A DNA stretch of 64,000 bases from NCBI RefSeq assembly GCF_014395785.1, contig NZ_CP060713.1, positions 1,826,501-1,890,500 of the forward strand. Direction: 5' to 3'. Below the pieces are notes generated by a model. The model searched no databases, was not told the origin of the DNA, and was given only the letters and a program-made list of their open reading frames with translations. The translations under genes were made by a program, and so were the position numbers. The DNA comes from Nocardioides mesophilus (GTDB lineage: Bacteria; Actinomycetota; Actinomycetes; Propionibacteriales; Nocardioidaceae). Positions 4,084 through 11,236 of the stretch are shown one piece after another (the stretch's first letter is position 1; each line of letters begins with the position of its first letter).

Positions 4084-4126
4084 AGGACCTGCCGACCACG
4101 CCCTTCCCTTCCGGTCGGCAGGTCCT
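4084..4126 (+). terminator. Second tandem inverted repeat, probable terminator
   Basis: A perfect 14-bp stem (4084-4097 with 4113-4126) with a 15-base pyrimidine-rich loop, directly after the first inverted repeat. Together the two would isolate the small exported protein from the membrane protein that starts at 4189. Confidence 0.6.
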
Positions 4127-4188
4127 TGCGCGTCCGGGCCCGGGAACCCGGTTGCCTCGCGACCTGCACCGGCGCGAGGCTGACCCTC

Positions 4189-4797
4189 ATGACCCTGCGC
4201 CCGACCAGCCGCACGCCCGTCGCAGCGGTGGTCCAGCTGGTGCTGGGCTGCCTCGTGCTCGGCCTCGGGGTGACGCTCCTGCTCGAGGCCGCGCTGGGCT
4301 CCGACGGCTACTCGACGCTCGTCAACGGCCTGACGCTGAGCAGCGGGCAGCCGTTCTGGGTGCTGAACGCCGTCGTCGGCGTGCTGCTGATCGCGATGGC
4401 GTGGGTGCGCGGGACCGTGCCGGGGCTGGGCACGCTCGTGCAGCCGCTCCTCGTCGGCTTCTCGGTGACCGCGGCGATGGCGGCGATCCCGGACACGTCC
4501 TCCCTGGGCGCGCGGGTGGTCGAGCTCCTCCTCGCGTTCGCGCTGCTGCCGCTCGGCGTGGCGGCGTACCTCTCGAGCGACACCGGCGCCGGGCCGGCCG
4601 AGGCGGCGGCGCTGGCGTGGGACCCGCCGATGCCGTTCCGGTGGAGCTACAGCCTGGTGCAGGGCGGCGGCGCGCTGGTCGGTTGGCTGCTCGGCGCCGC
4701 GGTCGGCCCGGGCACGCTGCTGGTGATCTTCCTGCTCGGGCCCGCCGTGGACCTGCTCGGTCGCCGGGTGCCGCTGCTGCGGCTGGCCCCGCGCTGA
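4189..4797 (+). CDS. YczE/YitT-like integral membrane protein
   Basis: A 202-residue protein with about five hydrophobic segments (near residues 12-34, 58-78, 82-103, 110-130 and 160-190 from the ATG). The GLGVTLLLEAALGSDGYSTL stretch resembles YczE/YitT membrane proteins, whose function is not settled. I chose ATG 4189 because a GAGG lies 9 bases before it; a TTG at 4126 in the same frame falls inside the preceding hairpin. No functional partner is obvious. Confidence 0.75.
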   Translation: MTLRPTSRTPVAAVVQLVLGCLVLGLGVTLLLEAALGSDGYSTLVNGLTLSSGQPFWVLNAVVGVLLIAMAWVRGTVPGLGTLVQPLLVGFSVTAAMAAIPDTSSLGARVVELLLAFALLPLGVAAYLSSDTGAGPAEAAALAWDPPMPFRWSYSLVQGGGALVGWLLGAAVGPGTLLVIFLLGPAVDLLGRRVPLLRLAPR

Positions 4798-4861: not shown

Positions 4862-4895
4862 CTCACCGGCTCACCGCGCTCACCGGCTCACCGCG
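4862..4895. repeat. Two perfect 17-bp tandem repeats over the end of the DabB-DabA gene
   Basis: The 17-base unit CTCACCGGCTCACCGCG occurs at 4862-4878 and again at 4879-4895. The second copy contains the stop codon of the reverse-strand gene (4888-4890), so copy-number change would alter its last residues or 3' flank. Confidence 0.7.
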
Positions 4896-7800
4896 GGCCG
4901 ACGGCATCGGCGAACGGGTCCGCCGACGGGTCGGTCCAGGGCGACGCGAGCGGCGGGCTCCACGGCGTCGTCCGCAGGTCCGTCGTGACCAGGTGCACCC
5001 GCCGATCGGCCCCGTCGTCCGGCGACAGGCAGGCCAGGTGCAGCCACTCGCCGCAGACCAGCCGCTGGAGCACGGTCGAGCGACGGACGACCGCGAGCAC
5101 GGCCTCCGGCGCGGCGGCCACCACCACGAGCTGCCGCACCGGCTCGTGCGCCCCTGGCGGCGGGACCTCCGCAGGGTCGGCGGCGAACAGCGCCTGCCAC
5201 GGCAGGCCGAGGCGCAGGTCGCCGTGCGCCCCGGTGAGCACGCCGACGTCGCCGACGACGTTGTGGGTGGTCTTGTCCCCCGCCCCGAGCACGTCGGGCG
5301 CCACCGTCGAGAAGTAGTACTGCGCGTTGATCCACTGCCCGACCACGGCCGGGGCGTTCAGCAGCGACTCGAGCACCGCGCGGTCGGGGTCCTGCCGCTC
5401 GTCGTAGGAGTGCAGGAACACCCGGCCGTCGAGGTCGAGGTCCGCGGAGAGCCGCCGCGGGCCGATCAGCATGGCCGCGTTGCCGGCCAGGCCCCACTCG
5501 GGCGTGGGCTCGGACCAGTCGCTCGCCCGTCGTGCCGCCACGGTGCGCGCGTCGCCCCGTCGGCCCGGGCCGCGCCGACGCCCCCGCACCTGGTCCGGGA
5601 GCGTCCGCAGCCGCTCCTCGCAGGTCGCCGCAGCGGCGAGCCGCGCGTCCCGCTCCAGCGCCTCGAGCTGCGCGGCGTGGGTGAGCCGGGCCTGCGCGAG
5701 CGGGTCGACCGTCAGGGCGTCCGTCGTGGTCTCGTGGACCGCGGCGACGGCCACGGTGTCGGCAGGCAGCGTGATGCCCCGCGCGGCGAGACGACGCCGT
5801 ACCTCGGGGTCGTTGAGCGCGTCGACCACGACCACGGCGTTCACCTCGCCGCCGTTGCCGCCGCAGGCGCCGCAGTCGTAGGCCGAGGCGTAGGCGTTGT
5901 TCTCCATCGCCGCGACGTGGCCGCAGACCACCAGCAGCGGCGCGAAGCCGTCGACGAGACCGATCGCGCGCAGCAGGCCCTCGGCGAGGTCGGCCCGCTC
6001 CTCCTGCGTCATGGCGACGTGCAGCCGGGGGGACGGCGCCGGCTGCCGGCCGAGGGCCCGCCGGGTCCAGGACCGGTCGACCGACCGCCAGCGGGAGGGC
6101 AGCACCGTGGCGGCCAGCGCAGCGGCCGCCGCCGGCAGCCCGCCTGCCTCCGCCAGCACCAGCGGCACCGCCGGCGCGCTCCCGAGCGACGTGCTCGCCC
6201 GGTGCACCCGGGACCGGAGCCGCACGGGACCGTCCTGCGCCGCGGCGGCCTCGTGCGTCGGCACCACCAGCGCCGGGCACTGGTCGAACGACCCGCCGTC
6301 GGCGTCGTGGTAGCGGACCGCGGCGCCGAAGAAGCCCGCCGCGCCGAAGGTCTCGTAGTCACCCTGCCGCTCCAGCGCCCGACGCAGCCGCTCGGAGCGT
6401 ACGTCGATGCAGAGCACCAGCTGGGCGCTCGGCCGGGCCGCCGGGGCCTCCGCCTCCGGCCGGTGGCCGTCCGCCTGCCGCTGCAGCCGGGCGAGGAGGT
6501 CGTCGTGGACGCCGCGCTCGTAGGCGAGCTGCCACACGCTCGCGAGCCGCCGGCCGGCGAAGAGCGTCCGCTCGGGCTGCGGACGCTGCTGCGCCTCCAG
6601 GTCGACCGGGCGTGCCGCCACGGCTCCGGTGAACAGCACGTCGAGCGCCACCCGCAGCGCCACCAGCTCCAGCAGCGGGGTGAGCTCGCCGGTCCGTCGC
6701 ACCCGCCACTGGGCGTGCGCCGCCCAGCCGGGGGCGGCGGCCAGGGTCCGGCAGACGTAGCCGACCAGGCCCTGCCGCGACACCCCGGCCCGGTCCAGCA
6801 GCACCGCCAGCGCCGCGGCGGGGTCCTCGGGCAGGTCCCGGACGAGCCGGCTGAGGCCGCGCACCCGGACCTGCCGCTCGTAGCCGGTCTGCACCGCAGC
6901 CGCCCGCCAGAGCCGCCACGGCCCGACGGCGTCATCGTGGGCGCGGGACCAGGCCCGCTGGGTCCACAACGCCGCGTGGTCGTCGACCAGTCCCGCGAGC
7001 CGGGCGGTCCCCCGGTCGTCGCCGGCGGCCTCGCAGAAGCGGAGCGTCGCCGCCCGCTTCCCGGCCGTGCCGGCAGCCGGGGAGGCACCTGGGGCGGCGG
7101 ACCCGGCAGCGGCCTCCGCGGCCGACGCCTCGAGGAACTGCTCCACCGACAGGTCCACGTCGAGGGCGGTGCGGCCCGCGGTGCCGCCGGTCAGGTCGGC
7201 GACCACCACCGCGAGGTCGCCGCGGCTGATCCGGCCAGTGGCGTGCAGCCAGTGGTAGGTCCCCAGCGGCAGGTTCCCCGCAGCGCCGTGCACGCGCTCG
7301 ACCACCTGCACCGCGTCGTCGAAGGGCATCGTCTCCAGGTTCGCGAGCGGGTTGGCCGCCACCATCTCCCGCAGCGGCCACTGCGGCGAGACGAGGGTCC
7401 CGGCGGTGCGCACCAGCGCGGCCACCGGCTCCGGCCCGAGCGCGCCGCCACCGGATCGCCGGTCCCCGGCAGCGCGAGCGGTCGGCCAGCCGGCACGCCC
7501 GCCGACCCGCGCGTGCCACGGTGGCAGCGCGGAGCCGCCCAGCCGGACCGCGAGGGCCGACGTCGAGGTCGGCCCCACCCGCCGTACCCCGAGCAGCAGC
7601 AGCGCGCCCGCGGTGACGATCCCGGCGACCAGCGCGACGGCGAGGACGCCGTCCCAGACCGGCACCGGTGGGAACGGGTCGGACAGCAGACTCTCCCAGC
7701 CCAGCAGGAGCCAGCCGTACGCCGCGGCGCCCAGTCCCGCCAGGACGGCGACACCGGTCCGCGGACCGGCCGGCCCCCGGTCGCGTCCGGCCGCCCGACC

Positions 7801-8949
7801 GGCGACCGCCGCCGCGGACACGGCCAGCAGGAACGGCAGCACGGCGGGCGCCCCGAGCAGCTCCACCTGGTGCACCGCGGCCGGGGCGGCGCCCAGCACC
7901 GCGACGAGGGCCGCGAGCGTGGCCCAGGGCAGGCCGTCGCCGCGGACCCGGGGAACCGCAGCGCCCTGTGGGGCCGGCCGCCTCCGGCTGCGGGTGACCT
8001 CGCCGCCGGCGCGGAGGAACAGCCAGGCCTTGTAGCAGCCATGACCCACGAGGTGCAGCAGCGCTGCGGCCGGCAGGCCGAGGCCGAGCTGCACCGCCAT
8101 CCAGCCCATCTGGGCCGTCGTCGAGCAGGCCAACCTGCCCTTCACGTCGGTGCGCACCTGCGCGGCCAGGGTCCCCAGCGCCACCGAGGCCACCCCCGCC
8201 ACGACCAGGAGCAGCAGCGCCGCCGGAGCGGCTGCCAGGACCGGCCAGGCGAGCAGCGGGAGGATGCCGGCCCCGTTGACCACGCCGGCGTGCAGCAGGG
8301 CGGAGACCGGCGAGGGCGCCTCCGCGGTCTCCGGGAGCCATCGGTGGAACGGCACCAGGGCGGAGCGCACCAGCCCGGCCGCCACCAGGCACAGCGCCAC
8401 CGCGGTCGCGGCCCCCGCGCCCGACGCCGCCGAGAGGCCGTCCGCGCCCAGGGCCGCCAGCTCCGCGCGGTCCACGGTCGGCAGCGCCAGGAGCGCGACC
8501 AGGACGCCCAGCCAGAGAAGGGCGTCGCCGACGAGCAGCTGCCGGCGGGTGTGAGCAGCTGCGCGGCGGGCACCCGGCGTACCGGCGTGGCCCACCAGCG
8601 CGGCGATCGCCAGTCCGCTCGCGGTCCAGCCGAGCGCCACCACCGGCAGACTGGCACCGGTCACCATCAGGCCCAGCGCCGCGAGGGCGCCCCCGGCGAG
8701 CAGCCCGAACCGCCCCAGCCGGCGCTGGCCACGCAGGTTGGTCACGGCGTAGGTGGTGACCAGCCAGCCGAGGAGGCCGACCAGGGTCAGCAGCACCGCG
8801 CTCACCCGGTCCACGTGCAGACCCCAGGCGACGCCGCCCGCCGACACCGTCCAGGTCAGCGACCCGTCCGTCGTGAGGGCCGCGGCCACGCCCGCTGACC
8901 CGATGACCGCCGAGAGCCGGCGTGCCCACTGAAGCGTTGACATGGGCAT
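4888..8949 (-). CDS. Fused DabB-DabA predicted inorganic carbon transporter (NuoL-like plus DUF2309)
   Basis: A 1353-residue single chain. Residues 1 to about 460 are a multi-span NuoL/MrpA-like antiporter module (PVSALLHAG near 225, HGCYKAWLFL near 305). From about residue 500 onward is DUF2309/DabA. It keeps the four expected zinc-site residues of DabA: Cys and Asp in CIDVRSE near 848, His in CGHV near 1009 and Cys in DCGACGG near 1025. In characterised systems DabA and DabB (MpsB/MpsA) are separate proteins that form a complex for cation-coupled CO2/bicarbonate accumulation. Start chosen at ATG 8949; an in-frame ATG at 8943 and an upstream start at 9021 are alternatives. The upstream one would run into the divergent control region. 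The winged-helix gene at 9038 is divergent. Confidence 0.9.
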   Translation of the reverse strand: MPMSTLQWARRLSAVIGSAGVAAALTTDGSLTWTVSAGGVAWGLHVDRVSAVLLTLVGLLGWLVTTYAVTNLRGQRRLGRFGLLAGGALAALGLMVTGASLPVVALGWTASGLAIAALVGHAGTPGARRAAAHTRRQLLVGDALLWLGVLVALLALPTVDRAELAALGADGLSAASGAGAATAVALCLVAAGLVRSALVPFHRWLPETAEAPSPVSALLHAGVVNGAGILPLLAWPVLAAAPAALLLLVVAGVASVALGTLAAQVRTDVKGRLACSTTAQMGWMAVQLGLGLPAAALLHLVGHGCYKAWLFLRAGGEVTRSRRRPAPQGAAVPRVRGDGLPWATLAALVAVLGAAPAAVHQVELLGAPAVLPFLLAVSAAAVAGRAAGRDRGPAGPRTGVAVLAGLGAAAYGWLLLGWESLLSDPFPPVPVWDGVLAVALVAGIVTAGALLLLGVRRVGPTSTSALAVRLGGSALPPWHARVGGRAGWPTARAAGDRRSGGGALGPEPVAALVRTAGTLVSPQWPLREMVAANPLANLETMPFDDAVQVVERVHGAAGNLPLGTYHWLHATGRISRGDLAVVVADLTGGTAGRTALDVDLSVEQFLEASAAEAAAGSAAPGASPAAGTAGKRAATLRFCEAAGDDRGTARLAGLVDDHAALWTQRAWSRAHDDAVGPWRLWRAAAVQTGYERQVRVRGLSRLVRDLPEDPAAALAVLLDRAGVSRQGLVGYVCRTLAAAPGWAAHAQWRVRRTGELTPLLELVALRVALDVLFTGAVAARPVDLEAQQRPQPERTLFAGRRLASVWQLAYERGVHDDLLARLQRQADGHRPEAEAPAARPSAQLVLCIDVRSERLRRALERQGDYETFGAAGFFGAAVRYHDADGGSFDQCPALVVPTHEAAAAQDGPVRLRSRVHRASTSLGSAPAVPLVLAEAGGLPAAAAALAATVLPSRWRSVDRSWTRRALGRQPAPSPRLHVAMTQEERADLAEGLLRAIGLVDGFAPLLVVCGHVAAMENNAYASAYDCGACGGNGGEVNAVVVVDALNDPEVRRRLAARGITLPADTVAVAAVHETTTDALTVDPLAQARLTHAAQLEALERDARLAAAATCEERLRTLPDQVRGRRRGPGRRGDARTVAARRASDWSEPTPEWGLAGNAAMLIGPRRLSADLDLDGRVFLHSYDERQDPDRAVLESLLNAPAVVGQWINAQYYFSTVAPDVLGAGDKTTHNVVGDVGVLTGAHGDLRLGLPWQALFAADPAEVPPPGAHEPVRQLVVVAAAPEAVLAVVRRSTVLQRLVCGEWLHLACLSPDDGADRRVHLVTTDLRTTPWSPPLASPWTDPSADPFADAVGPR

Positions 8950-8984
8950 GACAATACCTGAGATTTTTTGCCGGTAATTAGATA

Positions 8985-9865: not shown

Positions 9866-11236
9866 TCACGACCGGTCAGCAGCGACCTCGGTCGACCCGA
9901 CCGGCTCGACGTCCAGCGAGCGGCCCCGGCGCTCCGGCAGCCCCCACACCGCGGTGGCGCCGACGGCGAAGAAGGCCGCGAACACGGTGAAGGTCAGCGC
10001 CGCCCCGCCGCTGCCGCGCAGCCACGGCACCGACAGCGGCGCGAGGATCGAGGCGATCCGGCCGAACCCGGCGGCCCAGCCGGCGCCGGTCGCCCGCAGC
10101 CGGGTGGGGTACACCTCCGGGGTCAGCGCGTAGAGCGCGCCCCAGGCGCCGAGGTTGAAGAACGACAGCGCCATCCCGCTGAGCAGGGCCGAGCTCTCGG
10201 TGTCCGCGACCCCGAAGAGCACCGCGGACACCGCCGAGCCGGCCAGGAAGGTCGACAGGGTGGGTCGCCGGCCCCACCGCTCGACGAGCACGGCGGCCGC
10301 GGCGTACCCCGGGAGCTGCGCGAGCGTGATCACCAGCGTGAAGCCGAAGGACCGGACCAGGTCCATGCCCGAGGCGACCAGCAGGGTGGGCAGCCAGATG
10401 AACGCCCCGTAGTAGGAGAAGTTGACCGCGAACCAGACCACCCACAGCGACACCGTCCAGCGCCGGTTGCCGGGCGCGAACAGCTCGCCCGGTCCGGCCC
10501 TCCCCGCTGCGGCGGGCGCGGGGGGCGGCCCGGTCGGGGTGGGTACGCCGGCGGCGCGCTCGAACCGGCGTACGACGGCCTCCGCCTCGTCGACCCGGCC
10601 GCGGCCCTCCAGGAAGCGCGCGGACTCGGGCAGCCCGAGCCGCACCACGACCGAGTAGACCGCTGGGGCTGCTCCGAGCGCCAGCGCCCACCGCCAGCCC
10701 GCGTCGTCGGCCGGCACCAGCAGGTAGCCGATCAGCGCGGCGAGCACCCAGCCGACCGCCCAGAACGCCTCCAGCGCCACCACCACCCGACCGCGGATCC
10801 GGGCCGGGGCGAACTCGCTGACCAGGGTGGAGGCCACCGGGAGCTCGGCCCCGAGACCGAGGCCGGTGAGGAACCGGAAGACCAGCAGCGACCCGACCGA
10901 CCACGACAGCGCGGCACCGCCAGTGGCGAGGCCGTAGACCAGCAGCGTCAGCGCGAAGACCGAACGACGTCCGATCCGGTCCGCGAGCAGACCGCCGACG
11001 CCGGCGCCGATCGCCATGCCGACGAAGCCGATCGAGGCGATCCAGGACAAGGTCGTGTCGTCGAGCTTCCACTGCACCGCCAGCGCGGCCATCACGAAGC
11101 TGATCAGCCCGACGTCCATGGCGTCGAGAGCCCAGCCGACGCCGGAGCCGGCGACCAGCCGCCCGTGCTCGCGGGTGAACGGCAGCCGGTCCAGCCGGTC
11201 GGTGCGGGACAGCGGCCCGCCGGTGTGCTCACTCAT
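9866..11236 (-). CDS. MFS transporter, sugar-porter/NiaP-like
   Basis: A 456-residue protein with 12 predicted membrane segments. It has the family loop motif between TM2 and TM3 (DRIGRRSVF near 88) and an acidic-residue-rich TM4-5 region (LGLGAELPVASTLVSEFAP, then RIRGRVVV) typical of niacin/aromatic acid and SV2-like porters. A second RXGRR motif (VERWGRRPT near 290) is present. ATG 11236 (MSEHTG) is preferred to the longer frame reaching 11452, which would run into the divergent gene. The substrate is unknown. Confidence 0.85.
   Translation of the reverse strand: MSEHTGGPLSRTDRLDRLPFTREHGRLVAGSGVGWALDAMDVGLISFVMAALAVQWKLDDTTLSWIASIGFVGMAIGAGVGGLLADRIGRRSVFALTLLVYGLATGGAALSWSVGSLLVFRFLTGLGLGAELPVASTLVSEFAPARIRGRVVVALEAFWAVGWVLAALIGYLLVPADDAGWRWALALGAAPAVYSVVVRLGLPESARFLEGRGRVDEAEAVVRRFERAAGVPTPTGPPPAPAAAGRAGPGELFAPGNRRWTVSLWVVWFAVNFSYYGAFIWLPTLLVASGMDLVRSFGFTLVITLAQLPGYAAAAVLVERWGRRPTLSTFLAGSAVSAVLFGVADTESSALLSGMALSFFNLGAWGALYALTPEVYPTRLRATGAGWAAGFGRIASILAPLSVPWLRGSGGAALTFTVFAAFFAVGATAVWGLPERRGRSLDVEPVGSTEVAADRS

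Follow-up and report, generated by a model that had tools for sequence, protein, structure and literature searches.

The 64,000-nucleotide (nt) stretch of Nocardioides mesophilus DNA analyzed here (contig NZ_CP060713.1, positions 1,826,501 to 1,890,500, referred to as the window) carries on its minus strand a gene, dabBA, that encodes a DabB-like membrane module and a DabA module in one chain. Translation of the minus strand from 8949 to 4888 gives a single frame of 1353 codons in which the only stop is the terminal one. The initial annotation had proposed a single 1353-residue protein in the order B-A, and both the uninterrupted frame and Pfam bear this out. The membrane module comes first, with PF00361 at residues 104 to 318 (E value of 1.9e-30) and PF00662 at residues 39 to 81 (E value of 4.5e-5, slightly short of the Pfam cutoff), giving a NuoL/DabB-like module that spans residues 39 to 318. 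PF10070 (DabA) follows at residues 514 to 1303, covering model positions 2 to 747 of 747 with an E value of 1.3e-191. The closest solved chains are DabA2 (query residues 512 to 1335) and DabB2 (query residues 36 to 497) of Halothiobacillus DAB2 (9rd0). The NCBIfam NuoL models remain far under their cutoffs (197.5 bits versus 380 for the best, NF006029, and 142.5 versus 556 for NF005141), so the fusion is not classed as a complex I subunit. The β-carbonic anhydrase (β-CA) family PF00484 gave no match in the fusion among the Pfam families at E values up to 1. The linker joining the two modules is short, approximately 25 residues by eye, and coincides with a low-confidence part of the predicted structure (model residues 354 to 360, which are residues 494 to 500). 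No stop or frame break interrupts the modules, and the same one-frame order recurs in other genomes.

The frame of the fusion stays open past 8949 as far as 9021, where there is a GTG. Translation probably begins not at 8949 but at the second ATG, 8943 (1351 amino acids [aa]), because this ATG has a −10-like TATTGT exactly 7 nt ahead of it. The third-position GC content of the fusion is 0.946, and this very high value accounts for a long antisense frame on the opposite, plus strand (4993 to 8898, 1301 codons). Convergent with the fusion is a hydrophobic plus-strand frame of 223 codons (4126 to 4797) without a Pfam match.

Features of the dabBA locus, in window coordinates
Feature	Position	Strand	Basis and remarks
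dabBA fusion gene	4888..8943	−	Probable start at ATG 8943; open frame, Pfam, −10 box 7 nt before ATG
DabB (NuoL-like) module	7450..8943	−	Residues ~3 to 500; PF00361/PF00662, alignment to DabB2
DabA module	5041..7410	−	Residues 514 to 1303; PF10070, residue mapping to DabA2
−10-like box TATTGT	8951..8956	−	7 nt before ATG 8943; likely leaderless promoter
Candidate operator CCGGCA-N6-CTCAGG	8957..8974	−	Degenerate, 3/6 pairs; up to 6/6 in relatives
Winged-helix (MarR_2-like) regulator P0002, ~108 aa	9038..9364	+	Divergent; PF12802, E value of 1.5e-6; beside the fusion in relatives

Mapping onto DabA2 and DabB2, at the positions treated in PMC13144422, shows that the zinc-site residues are kept, as had been noted from the sequence at the outset. 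The zinc ligands C847, H1011, and C1026 correspond to Cys351, His524, and Cys539 of DabA2, and the Asp-Arg pair D849-R851 corresponds to Asp353-Arg355. The second-shell residues S852, H1072, and D1077 are also kept, L1154 matches Leu658 of DabA2, which replaces the Gln/His of β-CA, and the finger glutamate E934 matches Glu444. In the membrane module, the proton-path residues S216, H220, K270, S276, H299, H303, and K307 are all kept; mutation of the seven impaired DAB2 (PMC13144422). The mapping took in 17 other fusions (16 from actinomycetes and one from Acidimicrobium), eight separate DabA, and six separate DabB proteins, with the two-frame locus G539 in both separate sets. The zinc ligands, the Asp-Arg pair, and the proton-path residues are identical throughout; the exceptions lie at the finger glutamate (Asp in Phycicoccus) and at D1077 (Glu in the metagenome-assembled genome [MAG] BP5 and in Acidimicrobium). 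Further changes from DAB2 to the window protein include I151 to T109, R653 to T1149, F375 to A870, and I700 to L1196. The structure predicted for residues 141 to 1335 has a mean predicted local distance difference test score (pLDDT) of 76.1 and a predicted template modeling score of 0.79, with the finger region modeled as two helices (model residues 771 to 783 and 788 to 809), the second of which contains E934. In a Foldseek search with this model, the best 50 of 264 matches are complex-I/NDH chains, and 9rd0 is not among the matches listed.

Fusions were told from two-gene systems by BLAST of both modules; a long frame was rejected as the mark of a fusion, as several two-gene DabA lie in upstream frames that are open by chance. 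How widespread the fusion is, left open by the initial annotation, can now be answered in part. In a phylum-wide sample, DabA occurs in 23 of 396 genomes, comprising two B-A fusions (the window and Acidimicrobium ferrooxidans), seven two-gene systems, 13 genomes with a larger DabA (G178 and G200 seen in pieces, the former assigned from a fragment), and one genome (G166) too fragmented to place. In Nocardioidaceae, the host's own family, 17 of 341 genomes have a DabA match: nine fusions, one two-frame locus (G539), one two-gene locus (G409), three larger DabA (G446 partial), one unclear case (G441), and two matches under the family cutoff (G542 and G592). None of the six other genomes of the host genus matched. 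A further 18 loci yielded 12 full fusions, one cut fusion (L078), one two-gene locus (L071), and four with DabB-like frames only (L074 to L077). The 12 belong to Tessaracoccus antarcticus, Humibacillus sp., Nostocoides sp., Phycicoccus jejuensis, Actinotalea lenta, Nocardioides psychrotolerans, N. zeae, N. pinisoli, Nocardioides sp. TRM66260-LWL, and three MAGs. Together with the window, G408, G618, G561, and G733, they make 17 full-length actinomycete fusions, and 20 with L138 to L140 from the regulator search, a number that reflects what the samples showed and is no census. This breadth of single-chain fusions in Actinomycetes is what is new.

The larger DabA (L003 to L008, L010, L012, L016 to L018, L031, and L036) have approximately 1300 codons, with approximately 300 extra residues in the N-terminal part, and their NuoL-like genes are separate neighbors. 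At L006, an antiporter-like gene with PF00361 precedes the larger DabA and one with PF00662 and PF00361 follows it; this three-gene layout was not matched to a described one.

In a tree of the DabA core (36 rows), the 17 actinomycete fusions and G539 fall on one side of a branch with support of 98/97, and in a tree of DabB plus DabA (28 rows), the actinomycete fusions and G539 group with support of 100/100. A fusion group without G539 is rejected in the DabA-core tree (P = 1e-7). G539 (L057) carries DabB and DabA in two frames (minus strand, approximately 10160 to 10230), and since it lies inside the fused group, its two frames reflect either a later split or an error in the sequence. In both trees Acidimicrobium is placed among other rows, on a long branch in the DabB-plus-DabA tree; a single origin of all fusions including Acidimicrobium is not the best tree, yet the tests do not reject it (P = 0.17 and 0.32). 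The window fusion pairs in the trees with that of Tessaracoccus, from a different family, and none of the six other genomes of the host genus has a DabA match; together the two observations give a hint that the gene has passed from one family to another.

Divergent from the fusion lies the winged-helix regulator P0002, whose GTG is separated from ATG 8943 by 94 bases. A regulator of this type lies within 3 kb of 16 of the 17 actinomycete fusions: 13 are divergent and adjacent, two are upstream on the same strand (Tessaracoccus and N. psychrotolerans), and one is approximately 2.6 kb off (L068). In N. pinisoli, the regulator copy is approximately 520 kb from the fusion. It is also found near G539 and near three two-gene loci: G038, L071, and G409, the last truncated by a contig end. 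Within Nocardioidaceae, the regulator (E value up to 1e-10) is present in all 11 genomes with a B-A dab system (nine fused, G539, and G409) and in 22 of the 330 others, those with larger or unclear DabA included (Fisher test, 1.3e-12, with genomes that are not independent). Four family genomes without B-A dab (G214, G517, G479, and G542, all of one genus) carry the regulator divergent to SbtA (PF05982, E value of 4.7e-102 or better). Across a sample of 374 genomes from the whole class, the regulator occurs in 78 at an E value up to 1e-15. At 29 of these places (L109 to L137, up to 1.5 kb on each side, some cut by contig ends), the neighbor is dab in three, SbtA in four (in L131 with another gene in between), β-CA in two, and TerC in six, and 14 have none of these, five of the 14 having STAS-like genes by eye. 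The link of the regulator to inorganic carbon is thus strong but, given TerC and the other neighbors, not exclusive. No publication dealing with this regulator is known to us from a thin literature search.

Among 21 Nocardioidaceae regulator loci without dab, of which 10 were run through Pfam, six more have TerC beside the regulator by Pfam (five in Nocardioides and one in another genus). Across the samples, regulator kin adjoining TerC (PF03741 or tblastn) are seen at L087, L096, L104 to L107, L113, L115, L121, L122, L129, and L137. The kin at L110 and L120, in two genomes of one genus, are divergent to a β-CA gene (PF00484).

In actinobacteria, a −10 box 7 nt ahead of the start codon points to a leaderless message. 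Of the 20 dab upstream regions, the window among them, 15 have a TANNNT box exactly 7 nt before the start (14 of 19 without L128), with start codons chosen by eye, which suggests that the transcript of the fusion is leaderless. These 20 regions comprise 18 fusions, the two-gene G038, and L128, which is not confirmed as dab and has no BLAST support. Left out of the 20- and 25-sequence sets were G561 and G733 (near-copies of the sequence labeled Nzea), G539, G409, and L071 (start not settled), SbtA L089 and L090 (both nearly identical to L088), SbtA L127, and β-CA L110 and L120. An earlier set, with G561 and without L109, L112, L130, and L128, has the box at 7 nt in 11 of 17. With five SbtA sequences added, anchored on the box by eye and not counted for box position, TANNNT is found at 7 nt in 19 of 25 and at any other offset from 2 to 39 nt in at most five.

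Directly ahead of the −10 box there is often an inverted repeat, CNNGAA-N6-TTCNNG. When the geometry was left free, no clear inverted repeat emerged from 17 upstream regions (6.24 of 8 pairs on average versus 5.73 after shuffling). With a fixed geometry, picked after inspection of the sequences (arms of 6, spacer of 6, right arm touching the −10 box), the 25 sequences average 4.04 of 6 pairs versus a partner-shuffled mean of 3.17, and none of 1000 shuffles reached this value; spacers of any other length between 0 and 15 give 1.00 to 2.12 pairs. The 20 dab sequences average 4.1 versus 3.22 (0 of 5000 shuffles), and 4.0 versus 3.23 (P = 0.0006) without G408, a near-twin of G618. Perfect repeats occur in Actinotalea and L112 (CAGGAA/TTCCTG), G677 (CATGAA/TTCATG), G618 (CCGGTA/TACCGG), and G408 (CCGGCA/TGCCGG), and poor ones in L068 (RI32; 1/6), L069 (2/6), and the window. 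Among the SbtA loci, L088, L093, and L118 reach 5/6, L131 reaches 4/6, and L135 scores 0, its arms being shifted. The pattern was not seen by eye upstream of SbtA L127 or of β-CA L110 and L120, which argues against one operator shared by all. The position of the repeat just before the −10 box suggests repression. It is conceivable, though we would put it somewhat short of probable, that the regulator responds to CO2/bicarbonate and represses a regulon found throughout actinomycetes (dabBA, sbtA, and perhaps β-CA) by binding this candidate 18-bp site before a leaderless −10 box, with the single-chain pump as a main target.

The host genome has one DabA and one β-CA match, a 183-codon frame that covers model positions 2 to 74 of 156. 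Neither a RuBisCO large subunit nor an α-CA was found in it, the search covering the α and β classes of carbonic anhydrase and, among autotrophic routes, RuBisCO only. The genes around the fusion in the window are, from names given by eye, for sugar and small-molecule catabolism. The initial annotation spoke of a one-gene carbon concentrator in a heterotroph. The lack of a RuBisCO large subunit agrees with its latter part; together with the β-CA match and the catabolic surroundings, the same finding makes bicarbonate supply for ordinary carboxylases the likely job and a better description than carbon concentration. We infer transport, coupling ion, direction, physiological use, and repression alike. 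In the proposed mechanism, the NuoL-like half would let protons pass down the membrane potential, a hairpin finger bearing E934 would reach into the membrane part, and the β-CA-like half would hydrate CO2 in one direction at the zinc, leaving bicarbonate in the cytoplasm. This bicarbonate would be supplied to carboxylases at low CO2 in a presumed heterotroph, and the neighboring winged-helix protein would probably repress the fusion at the operator just ahead of the −10 box.

Judged from its sequence, the window gene is quite probably a single-chain DAB/MpsAB-type dissolved-inorganic-carbon system (DAC). Several observations weigh against this reading and the regulation proposed with it. Of the DabB2 ion-pair residues, two that reduced growth when mutated in DAB2 are changed here, K235 to R195 and R182 to L139; Asp185 is kept as D142, and positions 182 and 235 are also changed in all six separate DabB mapped. 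H1011 is followed by VAAM where DabA2 has GSST, and the finger helices are poorly supported in the model (block pLDDT of approximately 62 to 69). The host also has a β-CA match, so that the pump may not be needed, and the regulator is not restricted to inorganic-carbon genes, with TerC at 6/29 loci and none of the families sought at 14/29. A rival reading, put forward for MpsAB of staphylococci, is a Na+/bicarbonate symporter in place of a proton-driven CO2 hydratase. It would draw on the same protein family, in which sodium coupling was argued for MpsAB (PMC13144422), and on the fact that the actinomycete regulator also partners SbtA, from a superfamily of Na+-dependent bicarbonate transporters. 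The retention of the β-CA-like zinc-site residues and of proton-path residues matching DAB2, which had no need of sodium in that study (PMC13144422), makes such a symporter unlikely.

The odd residues after H1011 and the poor operator copy could also be signs of a redundant gene that drifts while the β-CA already does the job, and the β-CA match in the host and the absence of DabA from the six other genomes of its genus would fit. Such decay is very improbable for an uninterrupted frame of 1353 codons that has kept its catalytic positions and has both regulator and −10 box in place. That two adjacent genes were joined by a sequencing or assembly error is barely credible: the relative G539 does have DabB and DabA in two frames, but one-frame fusions in the B-A order stand in 17 other cases (16 in actinomycetes and one in Acidimicrobium), with three more found later, so the fusion is no assembly quirk. 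The single-chain DAC remains the preferred reading, and the gene is ordinary in kind and unusual in its one-chain form; what it adds is breadth in Actinomycetes and a candidate regulon. Single-chain inorganic-carbon pumps form a standing lineage in Actinomycetes, beyond a lone iron oxidizer. Natural single chains are helpful for transferring a single gene to other hosts and where a two-subunit complex falls apart, as the authors of the DAB2 work had to fuse theirs (PMC13144422). The regulator and operator pattern offer a direct and cheap handle on how actinomycetes might sense low CO2.

The architecture is no first. The initial annotation held that characterized Dab/MpsAB systems use two proteins, which does not agree with the published natural single-gene system of A. 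ferrooxidans; the window gene is a further member of a known architecture. The DAB2 cryo-electron microscopy relied on an engineered DabB2-DabA2 chain, which did not significantly affect growth yield and is said to mirror the natural single-subunit system of A. ferrooxidans (PMC13144422), and the fused gene of that organism is reported by Fan et al. 2019 (PMC6689103). The A. ferrooxidans DAC shares the DabB-DabA order in one frame (L059 in genome G080, 1409 codons). In contrast to the window fusion, to which it is approximately 30% identical, it belongs to an iron oxidizer capable of autotrophic growth, no P0002-like regulator was detected within the surrounding 18 kb, and neither tree places it among the actinomycete fusions, with one common group still not rejected. 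MpsAB of Staphylococcus aureus, compared by description only, is of the same family and from a nonautotrophic host (PMC6689103), whereas it is encoded by two genes and sodium coupling has been proposed for it. DAB2 of Halothiobacillus neapolitanus (9rd0) shares both modules, the zinc-site residues, the finger glutamate, and the proton-path residues with the window protein, whereas it is encoded by two genes in nature, in a chemolithoautotrophic host, and has approximately 40 extra residues ahead of the shared region, so that DabB2 probably has one more N-terminal membrane helix.

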